The notes under the pieces are model-generated. The model did no database searches. It was not told the DNA's origin and saw nothing but the letters and a program-made list of their open reading frames with translations. A program made the position numbers and the translations under genes. From Methanomassiliicoccus sp. (GTDB lineage Archaea; Thermoplasmatota; Thermoplasmata; Methanomassiliicoccales; Methanomassiliicoccaceae): DNA of 64,000 nt. The stretch spans positions 62,001-126,000 of the forward strand of contig JAWQJJ010000006.1 in the NCBI GenBank assembly GCA_033485155.1. The letters are read 5' to 3'. This document shows, one piece after another, positions 53,221 to 62,021 of this stretch. The first letter of the stretch is position 1. Each line of letters begins with the position of its first letter.

Positions 53221-54756
53221 TCACTGGTATGCTTGATCGTCCCGCATATGTTCGTTCCAGAAGTAGTAAGGGGATTTCTCTTTCTGTGCTGATGAGATGT
53301 CGGTGCCCAGCCCCTTCATGTATGTCCCGTAGCGCTCCTTTATCTGCTCCTCGGCCGGGCGGCTCCTCTTCATGGCCACGGCGACGTGACGGGCCTCGAT
53401 GAGGGCATCCCCGTTGGCCACGGCCAGGTCTCCCGAGGATCGGATGAGGCCTCCGAGCTCCCGGAGGCGGAGGGTAAGCGCGTTCTCTTTCCCATCCATG
53501 AGCTTGGCCCTGATCCGTGCTTCCCTGATGATGGCCTCGACAGCTGACCGTGAAGCCGGAGGGATGCGGCCGTCGGTGGCGATTTCCTGGGCCACGAACT
53601 GGGCGATACTGGCGCGGTTGGCATCGGTGTCGGGCATGAAGGTTTCGACCAGCACTTCATAGCCGTCCCCGTTGATCCTCGACCGCAGCGGGGAAAGGAC
53701 CTGCTCCAGATCCTGGATGTTGCACGCGGCGACTAAAATGAAGTTGGCCGGTACCGAGTCCACGCGAACTGACGCACCCGATGACTGAGGGTTCCGACCG
53801 GTGATGGGTGCCCGCTTCTCTTGCATGGCGGTAAGGATGTAGCGCTGCAACTGGCCCAGATGCGAGATCTCGTCCAGGAACAGCACCCCCTCGTGCGCTT
53901 CGTGGATGGAGCCAGGGATCACCCTTTCGTACGGCTGGGTGCCTAGCTGAGTATGCCCGCCGAACGGGTCATGGCGGACGTCCCCAAGGAGCTCGGTCTC
54001 CGAGGCCCCGGTAGCCAGGACGAATGGATTGCGCTCTAGAGGAACGATTACCTTGTGAGGCCGTTGGCGCTCCAGCGCACGTCGCTTCTCCAGCGCGCCC
54101 TGGTCCAGGACCCGGATCTTGTCCCCGGCGCGCTCGAAGACGATCACCTCTTCCTTGTCCCCGCGTTTGCGGGTGGTGGTGACCTTCTCCTTGCCCGCGG
54201 CGGCGAGCCCCGGGGCGGCGCTGGCCATCGATTCCATGAGGTTTCCGAGGATGTCCCCGAATGGATTATTGGCCTGCATCCCGGTGTCGAGCTTGGCCTT
54301 CTCACAATGGGGGCAGGTGCGCTCCGTGGCCGCGGAGTACGCTCCGCAGGATCGGCAGCGGTAGCCCAGGCGCTCGGCCACGCTCACCGGCGCGGACTCG
54401 GGGTCGATAAGCTCACCGACCGCCGATCCTCTCGTTTCCCGCTCCTTCAGCACCTCGTCCTCCCGTTTGACCTCGACCAGCGGCCGCTCGGGGTTCTCGG
54501 GATTGTGCACCGCCCTTATCTCCTCGCGGGGCTTGGGCAGGTGAAGAGCAAGGGCCTGAGCAATCATGGACTTTCCGGTGCCGGGCGGGCCGACCAGCAG
54601 GAGGTTCCTCCTCTGCCGGGCCGCGATCCGCGCCAGCTCCACCGCCTCCTCCTGCCCGATGACTCTGGCCAGGGGATCCTTCGGTATGAGGATGTCGGCG
54701 GTGGTGTCGATGGACCTCAGGTCCATCTCTTTCCGGATGTCCACTTTTTCGCTCAT
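53221..54756 (-). CDS. LonB-like AAA+ ATPase lacking the protease domain, with a zinc-ribbon insert
   Basis: The 511 residues follow archaeal LonB: an N-terminal IPKDPLARVIGQEEAVELAR, Walker A GPPGTGKS (56-63), the LonB signature LLGDVRHDPFGGHTQLGTQ, Walker B VLFLDEIS (291-298), and a sensor/lid helix region to about 480. The Lon Ser-Lys protease domain is missing. Where LonB carries membrane helices, this protein has a four-Cys zinc ribbon (C134, C137, C148, C151) and an MxxN-rich linker. It overlaps dnaG by 4 nt (ATGA). It probably acts as an unfoldase or nucleic-acid-linked ATPase. Confidence 0.85.
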   Translation of the reverse strand: MSEKVDIRKEMDLRSIDTTADILIPKDPLARVIGQEEAVELARIAARQRRNLLLVGPPGTGKSMIAQALALHLPKPREEIRAVHNPENPERPLVEVKREDEVLKERETRGSAVGELIDPESAPVSVAERLGYRCRSCGAYSAATERTCPHCEKAKLDTGMQANNPFGDILGNLMESMASAAPGLAAAGKEKVTTTRKRGDKEEVIVFERAGDKIRVLDQGALEKRRALERQRPHKVIVPLERNPFVLATGASETELLGDVRHDPFGGHTQLGTQPYERVIPGSIHEAHEGVLFLDEISHLGQLQRYILTAMQEKRAPITGRNPQSSGASVRVDSVPANFILVAACNIQDLEQVLSPLRSRINGDGYEVLVETFMPDTDANRASIAQFVAQEIATDGRIPPASRSAVEAIIREARIRAKLMDGKENALTLRLRELGGLIRSSGDLAVANGDALIEARHVAVAMKRSRPAEEQIKERYGTYMKGLGTDISSAQKEKSPYYFWNEHMRDDQAYQ

Positions 54757-56216
54757 TCGTTCAGGTCGTCCCTGGTCCAGACCTCGACCGAGGCCGGCTG
54801 CTTGGTGATGTTACCCATCTTGGTGCCTACGATGGTGACGATCTTGTTGTCGGCCGCGATGTCCAGGATCCTCTGGGTGACGATGCCGTCGAATACCACG
54901 GCGTTCACACCCTTGACGTTGGTCTTGAGGGTGTTGACGAGGTCCCTCACCGGGACCTCCTTGATGATCGCCCCGGACGCGTCCAGGATCTTGGCCTTTG
55001 AGGTTGTCGCCAGCTCATTGATAAGACTCTTGTAGAGCGTCTGGGCTTCGGACAGCTTCTTGCTCGGCTCGGCCTCCACCACTTGCGGCTCCTCGACCGG
55101 GGCTCCGGTCTTCTCCGGCAGCTCGGCCATGGGCTCGATCACCGGCAGCTCCTTGACCGGCTCGCGGGGCTCCCTGGGCTCGCGCTGCTCTCGGGACCGG
55201 CGGTCCCGGGGCTCGCGGTGAGGCCGCTGCTCTGGCGGGCGCTCCTGGGCCTTGGCTTCCTGGACTGGCTCCTCGCGGGGCTCCCTGGACTCACGGAATT
55301 CTCTTTCCCTTGGTTCGCGGGGCTGCTCCCGGGGAGCGCGCTCCTCGCGGGGCTCCATAGCCGCGGCCTTGCCGTTCTCGGAACTCATCCCGTACATTTC
55401 CATGAACTGCTCGCCGGGGATCTTGTTGCGGAGGCATTTCATGATCTGCTTCTGGGTAAGCTCCTCGACTTCCATTCCCCGCGGGGCGCGGGCCACGAAG
55501 TCGACTTCGGCCACCTGGAACAGCTCCCGGAGGATGAGCTCCCCGCCCCGGTCGCCATCCACGAACGCGGTGATGACGCGCTCCTTGCTGAGGTCCATGA
55601 CGGTCTTGGGGACGTTGGTGCCCTCTACTGCTATAGCGTTCTTGATCCCCGACTTGAGGAGATTGAGGACGTCGGAGCGGCCTTCCACGATGATGATGGC
55701 ATCGCTGTCCTGGACGTTGGGTCCGGCGGGCAGGTGCTCCTTACCGTAGGTGATGATCTCCTCGGTCTGCACGCTCTGCCGAACGCTCTCGGTGAGGTCG
55801 ATGCCGGAGGTCTTGGATTGCTTGATAAGTTCGGTCAGCAGCTCCCTGGCCCTCTCGATGATCTTGGACCGCTTGGTTATCCTGACATCCTCTATGCTGA
55901 GGACGGAGATCTTGGCCTTGCACGGGCCTACCCGATCGATGGTTTCCAAGGCGGAGGCCAGAATGACCGTCTCCACCTGGTCCAGGCTCGATGGGATGAG
56001 GACCTCGCCGTCGGACTTGCCCTGCTTCGAGCTGACCTCGACCTCGATGCGTCCGATACGGCCGCTCTTCTGGAGGTCCCTCAGATCAAGCTCGTCGCCC
56101 AGCAGACCTTCGGTCTGGCCGAAGATGGCACCTACCACATCAGGCTTCTCCACGATTCCGTCGGCCTGTAGCCTGGCCTTGATCATGTACTTGGTAGTGC
56201 TAGGATCGATGTTCAT
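54753..56216 (-). CDS. dnaG: Archaeal DnaG primase (TOPRIM)
   Basis: This is the bacterial-type primase of archaea, also linked to the exosome. It starts MNIDPSTTKYMIKARL. The TOPRIM domain shows IIVEGRSDVLNLL (Glu) and AFVDGDRGGELIL (DxD) at about 170-240. A highly charged Arg/Glu/Pro-rich linker (about 300-400, repeats of REPRE) precedes the C-terminal domain. A TATA (ACTATATGAG) and a GAGGTG ribosome site lie upstream. It is co-transcribed with the LonB-like gene, whose ATG overlaps its stop. Confidence 0.95.
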   Translation of the reverse strand: MNIDPSTTKYMIKARLQADGIVEKPDVVGAIFGQTEGLLGDELDLRDLQKSGRIGRIEVEVSSKQGKSDGEVLIPSSLDQVETVILASALETIDRVGPCKAKISVLSIEDVRITKRSKIIERARELLTELIKQSKTSGIDLTESVRQSVQTEEIITYGKEHLPAGPNVQDSDAIIIVEGRSDVLNLLKSGIKNAIAVEGTNVPKTVMDLSKERVITAFVDGDRGGELILRELFQVAEVDFVARAPRGMEVEELTQKQIMKCLRNKIPGEQFMEMYGMSSENGKAAAMEPREERAPREQPREPREREFRESREPREEPVQEAKAQERPPEQRPHREPRDRRSREQREPREPREPVKELPVIEPMAELPEKTGAPVEEPQVVEAEPSKKLSEAQTLYKSLINELATTSKAKILDASGAIIKEVPVRDLVNTLKTNVKGVNAVVFDGIVTQRILDIAADNKIVTIVGTKMGNITKQPASVEVWTRDDLNE

Positions 56217-57703: not shown

Positions 57704-58510
57704 CTAACGACCAGGCAGGGCCTCGGACATGCTTCCAGAACGGAAACCGGTGAGATCCAAGGTAACATAGATGAAGCCCAGCGACCTCAGCCCGGACTCG
57801 ATGACCTCGCGGTCCTCTACCGCTCGAACCAGGAACCGTGCCTCGACCTCGACCCTGGCGATAGTGCCGTGATGCCGGACCCGTACCTGACCATAGCCGA
57901 GGTCGTGTAGGAGCCTTTCCGCTTCGTCCACCTGGATAAGCTTTTCCGTGGTGATCCTTTCGTTGTAAGGTATCCGGGTTGCAAGACAGGGGGATGGCGG
58001 CCGGGAGGCGGTCGGGAGTCCTAACTCCCTGGATGCCCCGCGAATATCCTCCTTATCCATACCCGCCTCGGCTAGCGGGGAACGTACCCCCAGCTCACGC
58101 AGCGCCCTCATGCCGGGGCGGTCACCGTCCTGGTCGCCAGAATGGGTGCCGTCGGCGACCAACTGCAGGTCCATGGCTCTCGCGGCTCGGATAATCTCCT
58201 GAAAGACCAGCTTCTTGCAATGATAGCATCGATCCGGGGGGTTCGCGATGATCTCGGATCGGGAAAGTACGTCCAAGGCGATGACCTTGGCCTCGATCCC
58301 CAGTCCCTTGGCGGTGCGCACGGCCTCCGCCACTTCCCCTTCGGGCATGAGGGAGGAGGAGCACACGATGGCCGATGCCCCACTTTCCAGTTCCTCCTTG
58401 GCGACCTTCAGCAACAGGGTGCTGTCCACTCCTCCGGAATAGGCGATGGCCACCTCGTCCATGCTTTTCACGATGTGGCGCAGTCTCCGCAACCGGTCCG
58501 ACGCTTGCAC
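57704..58510 (-). CDS. larE: ATP-dependent sacrificial sulfur transferase
   Basis: This is an ATP-pyrophosphatase-fold enzyme of nickel-pincer (NPN) cofactor synthesis. It activates and sulfurates the pyridinium-dicarboxylate mononucleotide using its own Cys. It shows AYSGGVDSTLL (PP-loop), DRCYHCKK and the sacrificial-Cys segment SPCLATRIPYNERIT. Length 268 is typical. It is divergent from larB, the first enzyme of the same pathway. LarC, which inserts nickel, is not in the window. Confidence 0.93.
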   Translation of the reverse strand: MQASDRLRRLRHIVKSMDEVAIAYSGGVDSTLLLKVAKEELESGASAIVCSSSLMPEGEVAEAVRTAKGLGIEAKVIALDVLSRSEIIANPPDRCYHCKKLVFQEIIRAARAMDLQLVADGTHSGDQDGDRPGMRALRELGVRSPLAEAGMDKEDIRGASRELGLPTASRPPSPCLATRIPYNERITTEKLIQVDEAERLLHDLGYGQVRVRHHGTIARVEVEARFLVRAVEDREVIESGLRSLGFIYVTLDLTGFRSGSMSEALPGR

Positions 58511-58593: not shown

Positions 58594-59367
58594 ATGGACA
58601 TGACCATCCGGGACGTGCTGGAACGCTACAGGAAGGGAGAGCTGGAGAGCGACGAGGCGGAAAGGCTGTTGCGTCTGGACTATGTCCGGAAGATCGGGGA
58701 GCACACTCTGTTCGACCCTCGCCGGTCGGAACGCAAGGACGTCCCCGAGATCATATATGGGGAGGGAAAAAGCCCTGCGGTTGTAGCCGAGATCGTCGGA
58801 CAGGCTCTTCAGGACAAGGATCACCTCATCATCTCCCGGGCCAGCATCGGGCACATGGAGGCCGTATGTGGCAAGCTGGGGGTGGAAATAGTGCGTTACG
58901 AGAAGGCAGCGTCGATGATCATTGTGGACCGCCGCCCCCGGACCGAGTTCAGGGGGCTCATCGGCATCCTGGCCGCGGGAACCTCCGATGTTCGGGTGGC
59001 CGAGGAGGCCAAGGTCGTGGTCGAGGCTATGGGCGTAGGGGTTACCGTCGCCTATGATGTGGGGATCGCCGGCTTCCATCGTTTGCTCGATCCCCTGACG
59101 AAGATGCTCGACCAGGGGGTGGACGCGCTCATTGTGGTCGCTGGGATGGAGGGAGCGCTGGCCTCCGTAGTATCATCTCTTGTCGATGTCCCGGTCATCG
59201 GCGTCCCCACATCGGTTGGATACGGGGCCGGAGGGAATGGTAAGGGAGCGCTGCTAACCATGCTGCAATCCTGCTCTCCGGGGCTGGCAGTGGTCAACAT
59301 TGACAACGGGGTAGGTGCTGGAGCCACCGCCGGGCTTATAAGCTTAAGATGTCGACGCTCTAAATAA
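58594..59367 (+). CDS. larB: Nicotinic acid adenine dinucleotide carboxylase/hydrolase
   Basis: LarB carboxylates the pyridine ring of NaAD with CO2 and hydrolyses it to start NPN cofactor synthesis. The N-terminal LYRKGEL-type helix is followed by a PurE-like domain with GILAAGTSDVRVAEEA, DVGIAGFHRLL and GVPTSVGYGAGGNGKGALLTML. Length 257 is normal. It is divergent from larE across 83 nt, so both can share control. The 3' end is 13 nt before the PolX-like gene. Confidence 0.95.
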   Translation: MDMTIRDVLERYRKGELESDEAERLLRLDYVRKIGEHTLFDPRRSERKDVPEIIYGEGKSPAVVAEIVGQALQDKDHLIISRASIGHMEAVCGKLGVEIVRYEKAASMIIVDRRPRTEFRGLIGILAAGTSDVRVAEEAKVVVEAMGVGVTVAYDVGIAGFHRLLDPLTKMLDQGVDALIVVAGMEGALASVVSSLVDVPVIGVPTSVGYGAGGNGKGALLTMLQSCSPGLAVVNIDNGVGAGATAGLISLRCRRSK

Positions 59368-59380
59368 TGAAAGGACGGAA

Positions 59381-61051
59381 ATGCGGGTGATGATGGGCAG
59401 GGCAGACAACCGGAGGGCGGCCGAGCAGTTCTACGATCTCGCCCTGGCGATGGAGCTCCAGGGTGAAAGATGGAGGGCTAACTCGTACATGAAGGCCGCC
59501 CGCAGCATCGAGGCCCAGACCGAATCCCTTCGCTCCATCAGCGACCGAAGGGGTCTCCGCAGCATCGAGGGGGTGGGAGAGAGCATCGAATCCAAGCTGG
59601 AAGAGTTCCTCGCCACGGGTCGGATCGAGGTCCTGGAGGCGGTCAAGGATCTGCTCCCCGAGGACCTCCCCGTCTTCCGGGACGCCCCGTGGCTGGGCTT
59701 CCGCCGGGTCGCTGACCTCGACCGCTTGCTTGGCGTCCGCACGGTTGATGAGCTTCTCAGGGCTATAAGCGAGGGGCGGCTCGCTGATCTGCCGGACTTC
59801 GATGACGAGGTGCAGCAGCGTACAGCAGAGTGGCTCAACTGGAGGAGAGAGGAGGCGGCAGAGATACCCGCCCCTTTTGCTCTCCGCTCGGCCATCAATA
59901 TATTGGACGAGCTGTTCGCGGGCGGCAATGTCACCGGGATCGAGCTGGCGGGCCCGGCCAGGAGGATGGTGAGCTCGGTGGCTAATGTCACTCTGCTGTT
60001 CTCCTCGCCTGTTCCCGACTTAGTGGTCGCCCAGTTCGGGATCTCTCCTGAGGTGGTCGAGCTGACGATGGTGGAACGGGAGCAAGCCATCGGCAAGACC
60101 CGGTCGGGGGCGGCATGCATGGTCCGCCAGGTGAGGGAAGATCAGTTCGCTTGGGAGCTGTTACAGGCCACAGGGGCGGACGCCCACCTCCGGGAGCTGG
60201 CCGAGGCGGCCAAGGCCGCAGGGACCCGCCTAAGCTCGCCGGCGCTGAAACATGCTGGGTCAGAGGAGGAGATCTACGCTCGCCTGGGCCGTTGCTACGT
60301 CTCGCCGGAGATGAGGGAGGGTCGCGAGGCCCCCGGTGTCCCGCTGACTGCCGATGACCTCGTGGGGGACCTTCACATTCGATGCTCCTCCTTCGGCGGA
60401 CCTCTGAGGGTCAAGGAGATGATGGCTGCCGCGGCCCGGCTCGGGCACCGCCTCGTGTGCTTCTGCGACCGGATAGGGCGGCACATGGACGTCGACGCCT
60501 TCGACCGCCGGAACGCCCTAATCGACGAGATCCAGGGGTATGAGGGCATGGTGATCCTCAAGGGAGCAGAGGTCGACATCACCCCTGACGGGCGCCTGGA
60601 CGCTCCCTCGGACGTCCTCGACGGCCTGGATCTGGTAGTGGCATCGGTGAACACCAGGCTCGCCATGCCTCCTGGGGAGATGGAGGCCCGAGTGCTGAGG
60701 GCAATGGACGACCCCAACATGGATGTACTGGGCCACCCCACCAATCGGGTGATCGGCCTGCGGGAGGGGAACGGCATCGACCTATCCAGAGTGGCAGAGC
60801 GTGCTGCGGAGAGGCGGGTGGCGCTAGAGATGAATGCTTACCCCGACCGCCTGGACCTTTCTGATAATGACGCTTTCAAGGTTTATGAGTCAGGAGCGTT
60901 CTATTCGTTGGGCACCGATGCCGCGTTCCCCGTGGAACTGGACGGCTGGAGGTGGGCGTTGACCATGGCTCGCAAGGCTATGCTGGAACCGGGAAGGGTA
61001 CTAAATTCGTTGTCCCCCCAGCTGCTGAAAGGGCGGGCCTGGAGGAAGTGA
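59381..61051 (+). CDS. PolX-type DNA polymerase beta/PHP protein with degenerate active sites
   Basis: The domain order follows family X polymerases of PolX type: an N-terminal helical/HhH region (GLRSIEGVGESIESKLEEFL, about 58-76), fingers, palm (about 165-255), and C-terminal PHP (about 325-545). The palm motif, normally GSxRRxxxxxxDID, reads GPARRMVSSVANVT, so both catalytic Asp are gone. In PHP the usual H-x-H is HIR (332-334), TDH is CDR (361-364), SVH is SVN (424), and TDAH is TDAA (515). H332, E397, H452 and D513 remain. A catalytically dead, structural or DNA-binding role is likely. Confidence 0.88.
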   Translation: MRVMMGRADNRRAAEQFYDLALAMELQGERWRANSYMKAARSIEAQTESLRSISDRRGLRSIEGVGESIESKLEEFLATGRIEVLEAVKDLLPEDLPVFRDAPWLGFRRVADLDRLLGVRTVDELLRAISEGRLADLPDFDDEVQQRTAEWLNWRREEAAEIPAPFALRSAINILDELFAGGNVTGIELAGPARRMVSSVANVTLLFSSPVPDLVVAQFGISPEVVELTMVEREQAIGKTRSGAACMVRQVREDQFAWELLQATGADAHLRELAEAAKAAGTRLSSPALKHAGSEEEIYARLGRCYVSPEMREGREAPGVPLTADDLVGDLHIRCSSFGGPLRVKEMMAAAARLGHRLVCFCDRIGRHMDVDAFDRRNALIDEIQGYEGMVILKGAEVDITPDGRLDAPSDVLDGLDLVVASVNTRLAMPPGEMEARVLRAMDDPNMDVLGHPTNRVIGLREGNGIDLSRVAERAAERRVALEMNAYPDRLDLSDNDAFKVYESGAFYSLGTDAAFPVELDGWRWALTMARKAMLEPGRVLNSLSPQLLKGRAWRK

Positions 61052-61055
61052 ACCG

Positions 61056-62021
61056 ATGAGCGTGTTGATACGACGGGAGAGGGAGGCCAGGCTCAGGACC
61101 ATGACCACGGGGGACATGGAGGAGGTCCGAGAGGTCGGACAGGTCGCATGGTCGGACCTGGCTATGCATGATATAGGGCGGAGGTTCAAGTACCCCAAGC
61201 GGTCGGAGCGGATCATCGATGCCTATCTGACCAACGATCCCCAGGGCTGTGTGGTGGCCGAGGTCGAGGGCAAGATCGTGGGCTCGGCGTTCTGCCACAC
61301 CTGGGGCAGGGTCGGATGGACCGGCCCTCTGGAGGTCCTTCCTGCCTATCAGGACCATGGGATCGGCAAGATGCTTCTGAAATCCTGCGAGTCTCATCTG
61401 TCGGAGAGAGGGTGCTCGATCATTGGTCTGGAGACCATGTGTCACCTGCCCAAGAACCTCCACTTTTACATGTCATCGGGATATCGTACCGGGCCGGCCA
61501 CCCTGATCATGGAGAAGGTGCTCAGGCAGGAGCACGGTGATACCGCGGGGGTGAAGGAGATCGAGAAGAGCGATCTCGATGGAGGCCTGGAGATAGTGAC
61601 CCGGCTCAGCCAGGCGATCAACCCTCAGCTAGACTATGCCCCTGAGGCTCTGTCCATCGTCAGTAAGGGTCTCGGCAACCTTTACGTGCTGGAAGGGGAC
61701 CAAGGGCCCCTTGGATGCGCCCTCCTGCATACCTATCAGCGGGGGGAGGAAGCTCCCTACTCCTCGGTGAAGGCGGTGCTCGTCGATCCCCGCGCCCCCG
61801 ATCCCCGAATGGTCCTGGACCGACTGATGAACAGGTGTGAGGCAAAATCCCTGGAGGGGGGGAAGACCAAGCTTCTGACTCGTTTCTCACCGATCGACAA
61901 CCGCATGTACGGAGTGATGCTCGCCCGCTCCTATGCCCTCAGGGGGGCGAATCTTCGGATGATCAAGGTCGGGGAATATGACGAGGCCGGATGGTGCAGC
62001 ATCACCTCGTGGGCCGGTTGA
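61056..62021 (+). CDS. Tandem GNAT-family acetyltransferase
   Basis: The 321 residues hold two GNAT domains. The N-terminal one (about 12-165) has EVLPAYQDHGIGKMLLKSCESHL as the acetyl-CoA loop. The C-terminal one (about 175-320) is weaker, with LGCALLHTYQRGEEAPY and no clear Q/R-x-x-G-x-G/A loop, so it may be inactive or structural. It is 4 nt after the PolX-like gene and probably co-transcribed. Substrate unknown. It could be an N-acetyltransferase for small molecules or proteins. Confidence 0.8.
   Translation: MSVLIRREREARLRTMTTGDMEEVREVGQVAWSDLAMHDIGRRFKYPKRSERIIDAYLTNDPQGCVVAEVEGKIVGSAFCHTWGRVGWTGPLEVLPAYQDHGIGKMLLKSCESHLSERGCSIIGLETMCHLPKNLHFYMSSGYRTGPATLIMEKVLRQEHGDTAGVKEIEKSDLDGGLEIVTRLSQAINPQLDYAPEALSIVSKGLGNLYVLEGDQGPLGCALLHTYQRGEEAPYSSVKAVLVDPRAPDPRMVLDRLMNRCEAKSLEGGKTKLLTRFSPIDNRMYGVMLARSYALRGANLRMIKVGEYDEAGWCSITSWAG

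Follow-up and report, generated by a model that had tools for sequence, protein, structure and literature searches.

Canonical PolX enzymes, such as those of Thermus thermophilus (3AU2) and Bacillus subtilis, consist of an 8 kDa domain, helix-hairpin-helix (HhH)/fingers, palm, thumb and PHP domains, in this order. About 27.5% of prokaryotic PolX do not have the full palm triad, 98% of these keep the PHP site, and the noncanonical PolX that have been tested are exonucleases (PMC9226535). The PHP site has nine ligands with the consensus HHHEHHEDH (PMC9226535), and the PHP residues are conserved in 95% of PolX1 in a 2026 survey (PMC12926913). The prior view is that PolX keeps its PHP nuclease when the polymerase is lost, and the nuclease is taken as the function protected by selection.

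In the window, i.e., the whole stretch of 64,000 nucleotides of Methanomassiliicoccus sp. DNA analysed here, the ORF at 59381..61051 (+ strand) encodes a 556-residue PolX paralogue with an intact frame, here labelled PolXd, which is predicted to be inactivated at both sites. PolXd shares the domain order of the canonical enzymes. However, the palm carboxylates, the Ser of the GS motif and the YF pair are absent, and four or more of the PHP ligands are gone.

PolXd resembles the noncanonical PolX described for Deinococcus, Bacteroidetes and Methanomicrobia by Prostova et al. 2022 (PMC9226535) in that the triad is lost while the frame is kept, and in that these proteins can coexist with a canonical copy. 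However, they retain HHHEHHEDH and an active, Mn-dependent 3'-5' exonuclease, while PolXd has lost this set and carries sets of the type [HR]RRENHE[DE]A. Further, 302 variants of the triad are found among noncanonical PolX, while the replacements in PolXd are nearly fixed. As the intact PHP site is missing, PolXd is outside noncanonical PolX as defined, although it is a PolX by descent.

Other derivatives of PolX with partial function are the bacterial PolX-like PHP proteins and PolX2 (PMC12926913), but in these, entire domains are gone and the active site that is left is intact, while in PolXd every domain is present and neither active site is kept. In E. coli Pol III the PHP ligands are also lost and the domain is kept structurally (PMC3666897); however, the polymerase site of Pol III is active and that of PolXd is predicted not to be. 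The inactivated archaeal B-family polymerases and PolB2 (PMC2527604, PMC8764526) belong to a different polymerase family, but they too form a conserved clade, predicted to be inactive, beside active paralogues. A conserved clade that appears dead at both PolX sites is new compared with the palm-only losses, while the survey in PMC9226535 may include rare doubly altered sequences. A literature search joining PolX and Methanomassiliicoccales found no paper.

Fold and active sites of PolXd

Profile searches, the best solved relative and the predicted structure all indicate that the fold and architecture of PolXd are of the PolX type, with the order 8 kDa-HhH, palm, thumb and PHP, and the full-length PolX-PHP architecture claimed in the original prediction is thereby borne out. 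In Pfam, HHH_8 and the pol-beta thumb pass the cut-off while PHP is weak and under it, and the NCBIfam PolX model spans residues 18–547 with a score far under the equivalog cut-off. The best solved relative is Thermus PolX (E 6e-56, residues 10–547). An AlphaFold2 model from four sequences gave a pLDDT of 53, and the model used is the version from six sequences, with a mean pLDDT of 84.6. Its top match in PDB is Thermus PolX (3au2), with a TM score of 0.76 over the whole length, followed by Deinococcus PolX. The homology over the whole length and the presence of all four parts make PolXd a PolX by descent.

The alignment used for the active sites consists of 13 family orthologues, the divergent orthologue from genome G007, 21–22 canonical archaeal PolX and Thermus PolX, whose positions are numbered via the alignment and possibly lie a few residues off the published numbering. 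Here, the three palm carboxylates of PolX correspond to N202, T204 and M247 in PolXd. The GSxRR motif has become GPARR (59951..59965, +), with P192 in 14/14 orthologues and Ser in every canonical row; S192P takes away the Ser that binds the dNTP phosphate, while both Arg of GPxRR remain. The metal-binding strand GDxD has become VANVT (59978..59992, +), i.e., D202N and D204T. Position 202 is Asn in 13/13 orthologues and Ala in G007, position 204 is Thr or Met, and none is acidic. The third palm Asp, present in every canonical row, is replaced by M247 (60119..60121, +) in 14/14 orthologues.

The YF pair of YFTG in the dNTP site is kept in 0/14 orthologues, and PolXd has neither the three palm carboxylates nor the GS Ser with YF-TG that mark a canonical enzyme. 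The catalytic residues are absent from every orthologue and present in 22/22 canonical comparison rows. The change from GSxRR...DID to GPARR...ANVT was noticed in the original prediction, and the alignment confirms it and adds the loss of the third Asp to its list. The palm motifs align locally without gaps, no Asp or His has shifted elsewhere, and the two palm strands of PolXd contain no acidic residues.

The PHP domain (residues 325–556; 60353..61048, +) carries the ligand set H R R E N H E D A in place of H H H E H H E D H, at positions H332, R334, R364, E397, N424, H452, E483, D513 and A515. In the window protein four of nine ligands are replaced, and H332, E397, H452, E483 and D513 are kept. 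H334R lies in motif I (H332-I-R334; 60374..60382, +) and R334 is found in 14/14 orthologues. H364R in motif II (60470..60472, +) is Arg in 13/14, with His in G011. H424N in motif III (60650..60652, +) is Asn in 13/13 readable sequences, and H515A at the last His (60923..60925, +) is Ala, Thr or Ile in 14/14 and never His. These are exactly the four replacements, with the same numbering, that were proposed originally, and other ligands do remain, as was also stated there. Across the orthologues four to six of the nine ligands are lost, and those still present vary: H452 is Asn in two, D513 is Glu in five and H332 is Arg in four. Since these three positions vary, no complete PHP metal site is common to the orthologues.

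Judged by its motifs, PolXd is thus very probably without both classic activities. Inactivity based on motifs is not the same as proof, as PolB2 was once called inactivated from its motifs but turned out to be active as an extender (PMC8764526); yet, in PolXd all three carboxylates are gone.

Distribution, history and selection

Orthologues of PolXd with the corresponding losses are present in 14/15 Methanomassiliicoccaceae genomes, including the one containing the window, at 38–81% identity. The only family genome without PolXd, G001, is 80% complete in 320 contigs, and as larB is absent as well, the assembly probably lacks this locus. Outside the family, no PolXd was found in about 610 genomes (400 class and 293 phylum genomes searched). 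The search scores are separated by a clear gap: G007, the most divergent orthologue and the weakest of the full-length genes in the family, scores 788 bits, and the best outsider 379 bits. Reading frames are uninterrupted in all orthologues, and the G011 gene contains a stretch of N. No orthologue has intact motifs and the corresponding residues are lost in 14 genomes, which rules out an isolated mutation or a sequencing error.

The window genome also encodes a canonical PolX (G000:C1:336311-338002) in which every catalytic residue is present. A clear canonical copy accompanies PolXd in 12 family genomes, and in a 13th, G013, the canonical gene is split over two contigs. In G007, which is 99% complete, only PolXd was found. 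This combination of a dead/active pair in one genome and a genome with the dead copy only makes the role of PolXd directly testable.

In the maximum likelihood tree, the 14 PolXd sequences form one group with 100/100 support, and 1.95 changes per column fall on its stem. Within the group, branches are of similar size to those of the active paralogue and the branching largely matches it. The placement of the stem is unsure, as it joins a long branch away from the canonical PolX of the family; uniting the two, as would be expected if PolXd arose by recent duplication of that gene, is not rejected by the AU test (p=0.087). The pattern is one of rapid change and later constraint.

Pairwise dN/dS is 0.13–0.28 for PolXd and 0.14–0.24 for the active paralogue in the same genome pairs, from Nei-Gojobori counts in which several pairs have a dS near 1. 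PolXd is below the paralogue in two pairs and above it in three, so the constraint is similar, not stronger. Purifying selection is evident, and together with the conserved replacement residues it rules out a pseudogene. Among the replaced catalytic positions, five of eight are invariant in 13 orthologues, compared with 110 of 556 positions (20%) overall (hypergeometric p=0.009).

PolXd is almost certainly functional. A clade that has apparently lost both sites, under constraint about equal to that of its active paralogue, indicates that selection can act on the PolX body for a role independent of both reactions. The G007 locus (L063) is fast-evolving throughout: the PolXd tip is ~7.8 times the mean of the others, and larE, GNAT and larB are at 3.7–5.6 times.

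Retained residues and a possible DNA-binding role

Conservation is uneven along the protein. In the 5'-end-binding 8 kDa domain with the first HhH (residues 8–85; 59402..59635, +), R32, Y36, the G64-V-G66 hairpin and K72 are kept, the last being by position the lyase Lys of pol beta and present in 13/14 orthologues. Invariant columns make up 38% of this domain, compared with 24% for the family's active paralogue. However, in the thumb the numbers are 8% and 47%, i.e., it is relaxed, and in the PHP domain 28% and 36%. The fingers/second HhH region (HhH2; residues 86–160; 59636..59860, +) is partly degraded, with 15 of 25 canonical-conserved positions variable within the clade.

In the PHP domain, R456, R461, N485 and R490 (60746..60850, +) are the motif equivalents of R469, R474, N498 and R503 in Bacillus PolX. 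Bacillus mutants at these four residues bind DNA less well and have a weaker PHP nuclease, but can still fill gaps (PMC6616362). In PolXd, every orthologue has the three Arg and 13/14 have N485; the equivalents of Bacillus F440 and K545 are not kept. By sequence alone, PolXd therefore has both parts expected of a DNA-end binder, the 8 kDa HhH and the basic PHP residues.

We suggest that PolXd is an old PolX paralogue, dating from the Methanomassiliicoccaceae ancestor, that would have lost the polymerase and PHP-nuclease chemistry and then been held by purifying selection for a non-catalytic job. Through the 8 kDa HhH and a basic track along the surface of the PHP domain, it could still bind nicked or gapped DNA from the 5'-phosphate side. 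PolXd might then act as a DNA-end binder or a platform for a repair complex, sitting on repair intermediates or linking them while neither cleaving nor elongating them. We prefer such a role, as the metal ligands appear selectively lost and the DNA path is largely preserved, and we would give non-catalytic binding of nicked or gapped DNA slightly less than an even chance. The retained arginines could instead have a structural role, two further DNA-contacting parts (HhH2 and the thumb) are degraded, and the operon neighbours are cofactor genes and not repair genes.

The original prediction was that the catalytic residues are lost and the protein is retained for a non-catalytic function, for example as a scaffold in repair complexes. 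The first part is well supported: the clade is monophyletic, the frames are uninterrupted, dN/dS shows constraint and an active paralogue is found in the same genome. The scaffolding part is a conjecture, given the cofactor-type operon of larB and GNAT, the absence of Ku and the presence of PolXd without active PolX in G007, although the DNA-binding surfaces do persist. Ku was found in none of the 15 family genomes (the search control was positive in Bacillus subtilis), i.e., they do not have the Ku that accompanies PolX in Ku-LigD NHEJ, and a link of PolXd to NHEJ was dropped.

The lar operon and alternative functions

Directly upstream of PolXd, separated by 13 bp, is larB (58594..59367, +; NCBIfam LarB, E 4e-72), with larE as a divergent neighbour (57704..58510, -; NCBIfam TIGR00268, E 2.8e-89). 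Directly downstream, after 4 bp, is a gene for a 321-residue protein with an N-terminal GNAT domain (61056..62021, +; Pfam PF00583, E 5.8e-16). The order larB-PolXd-GNAT is found in all four family genera where the contig is long enough, with spacing from an overlap of ~10 bp to a gap of ~25 bp; the only exceptions come from contig ends or ORF calling. In order-mates outside the family, 18 of the 18 loci examined have larB followed by the same GNAT gene, without PolX. As the two are adjacent there, PolXd was most simply inserted into an older operon. Co-expression with the operon is likely, but the operon position alone is no proof that PolXd works with LarB.

It can be speculated that PolXd was recruited to the larB/larE cofactor pathway, where a nucleotide-binding or structural fold would work with LarB, the GNAT protein or a nickel-pincer nucleotide intermediate, and not with DNA. 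The position between larB and GNAT in every genus where the locus is assembled favours this, and so does the gene content. A LarA-like protein (Lar_N) is present in 15/15 family genomes, LarB and LarE are also present, and LarC (PF01969) is not detected in 14/15, with only a partial match in G007, which leaves one step of the pathway unaccounted for. However, order-mates keep larB-GNAT without PolXd and mostly without LarC, so PolXd is not required as a LarC substitute; further, the only genome with LarC also keeps PolXd, and the DNA-contact residues are retained. We therefore consider the recruitment unlikely. Its more specific form is less likely again: that a repair-polymerase fold was reused outside DNA chemistry, as the nucleotide-binding or structural part of a LarC-less nickel-pincer route (larE, larB, PolXd and the GNAT gene) in Methanomassiliicoccaceae. 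A LarC-independent route or a diverged LarC would explain the absence of LarC. LarC is also absent from most order-mates of groups f3 and f6, and several f2 genomes have larC adjoining larB.

PolXd could also pair with the canonical PolX of the same cell, in a regulatory or structural role, as proposed for the inactivated archaeal PolB (PMC2527604). The 12 genomes with a clear canonical copy, and G013 as a 13th, are consistent with this, as is the fact that PolXd evolves fastest in the only genome without the partner. However, G007 keeps PolXd after losing the canonical copy, so PolXd is not strictly dependent on active PolX, and the neighbouring genes in G007 are fast too. The two genes are also in unrelated operons, as the canonical copy of the family is found with ribose-1,5-bisphosphate isomerase, a RuBisCO III-like gene and AMP phosphorylase (L035:1501-7012). 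We regard the partnership as quite unlikely. The neighbours at L035:1501-7012 represent the archaeal AMP-degradation route.

A similarly low probability is given to PolXd still being an enzyme, either a 5'-dRP lyase via K72 or through a PHP metal site rebuilt from E397, H452, E483 and D513. K72 is nearly always kept, most members still have four to five PHP ligands, and no other part is as well conserved, compared with the paralogue, as the 8 kDa domain. However, K72 is present in most canonical PolX too, so its retention is not specific, and no metal site is common to all members (H452, D513 and H332 vary). Most of the probability not assigned to DNA binding is divided among the lar pathway, the partnership with active PolX and a remaining lyase or metal chemistry. 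That PolXd is a decaying duplicate without function, as the lost catalytic residues and the long stem branch might suggest, is hardly credible and is refuted by the uninterrupted frames, the purifying selection, the fixed operon position and the conserved replacements.

The reverse state is seen in PolX of Thermoplasmatota class- and phylum-mates from several families (L167, L169, L168 and L172, i.e., G048:C14, G077:C36, G113:C1 and G421:C69), which keep GSxRR, GDxD, the third Asp and Y[FL]TG while the PHP ligands are almost all erased. Another PolX-like protein (L171) has 8 kDa and PHP parts and the palm is absent. Full-length PolX homologues are also encoded on IMG/VR contigs classed as viral (L157 and L106). 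Elsewhere in the window (53221-56216), a DnaG primase gene adjoins the gene of an AAA protein related to LonB, with a top NCBIfam score that is under the LonB cut-off.
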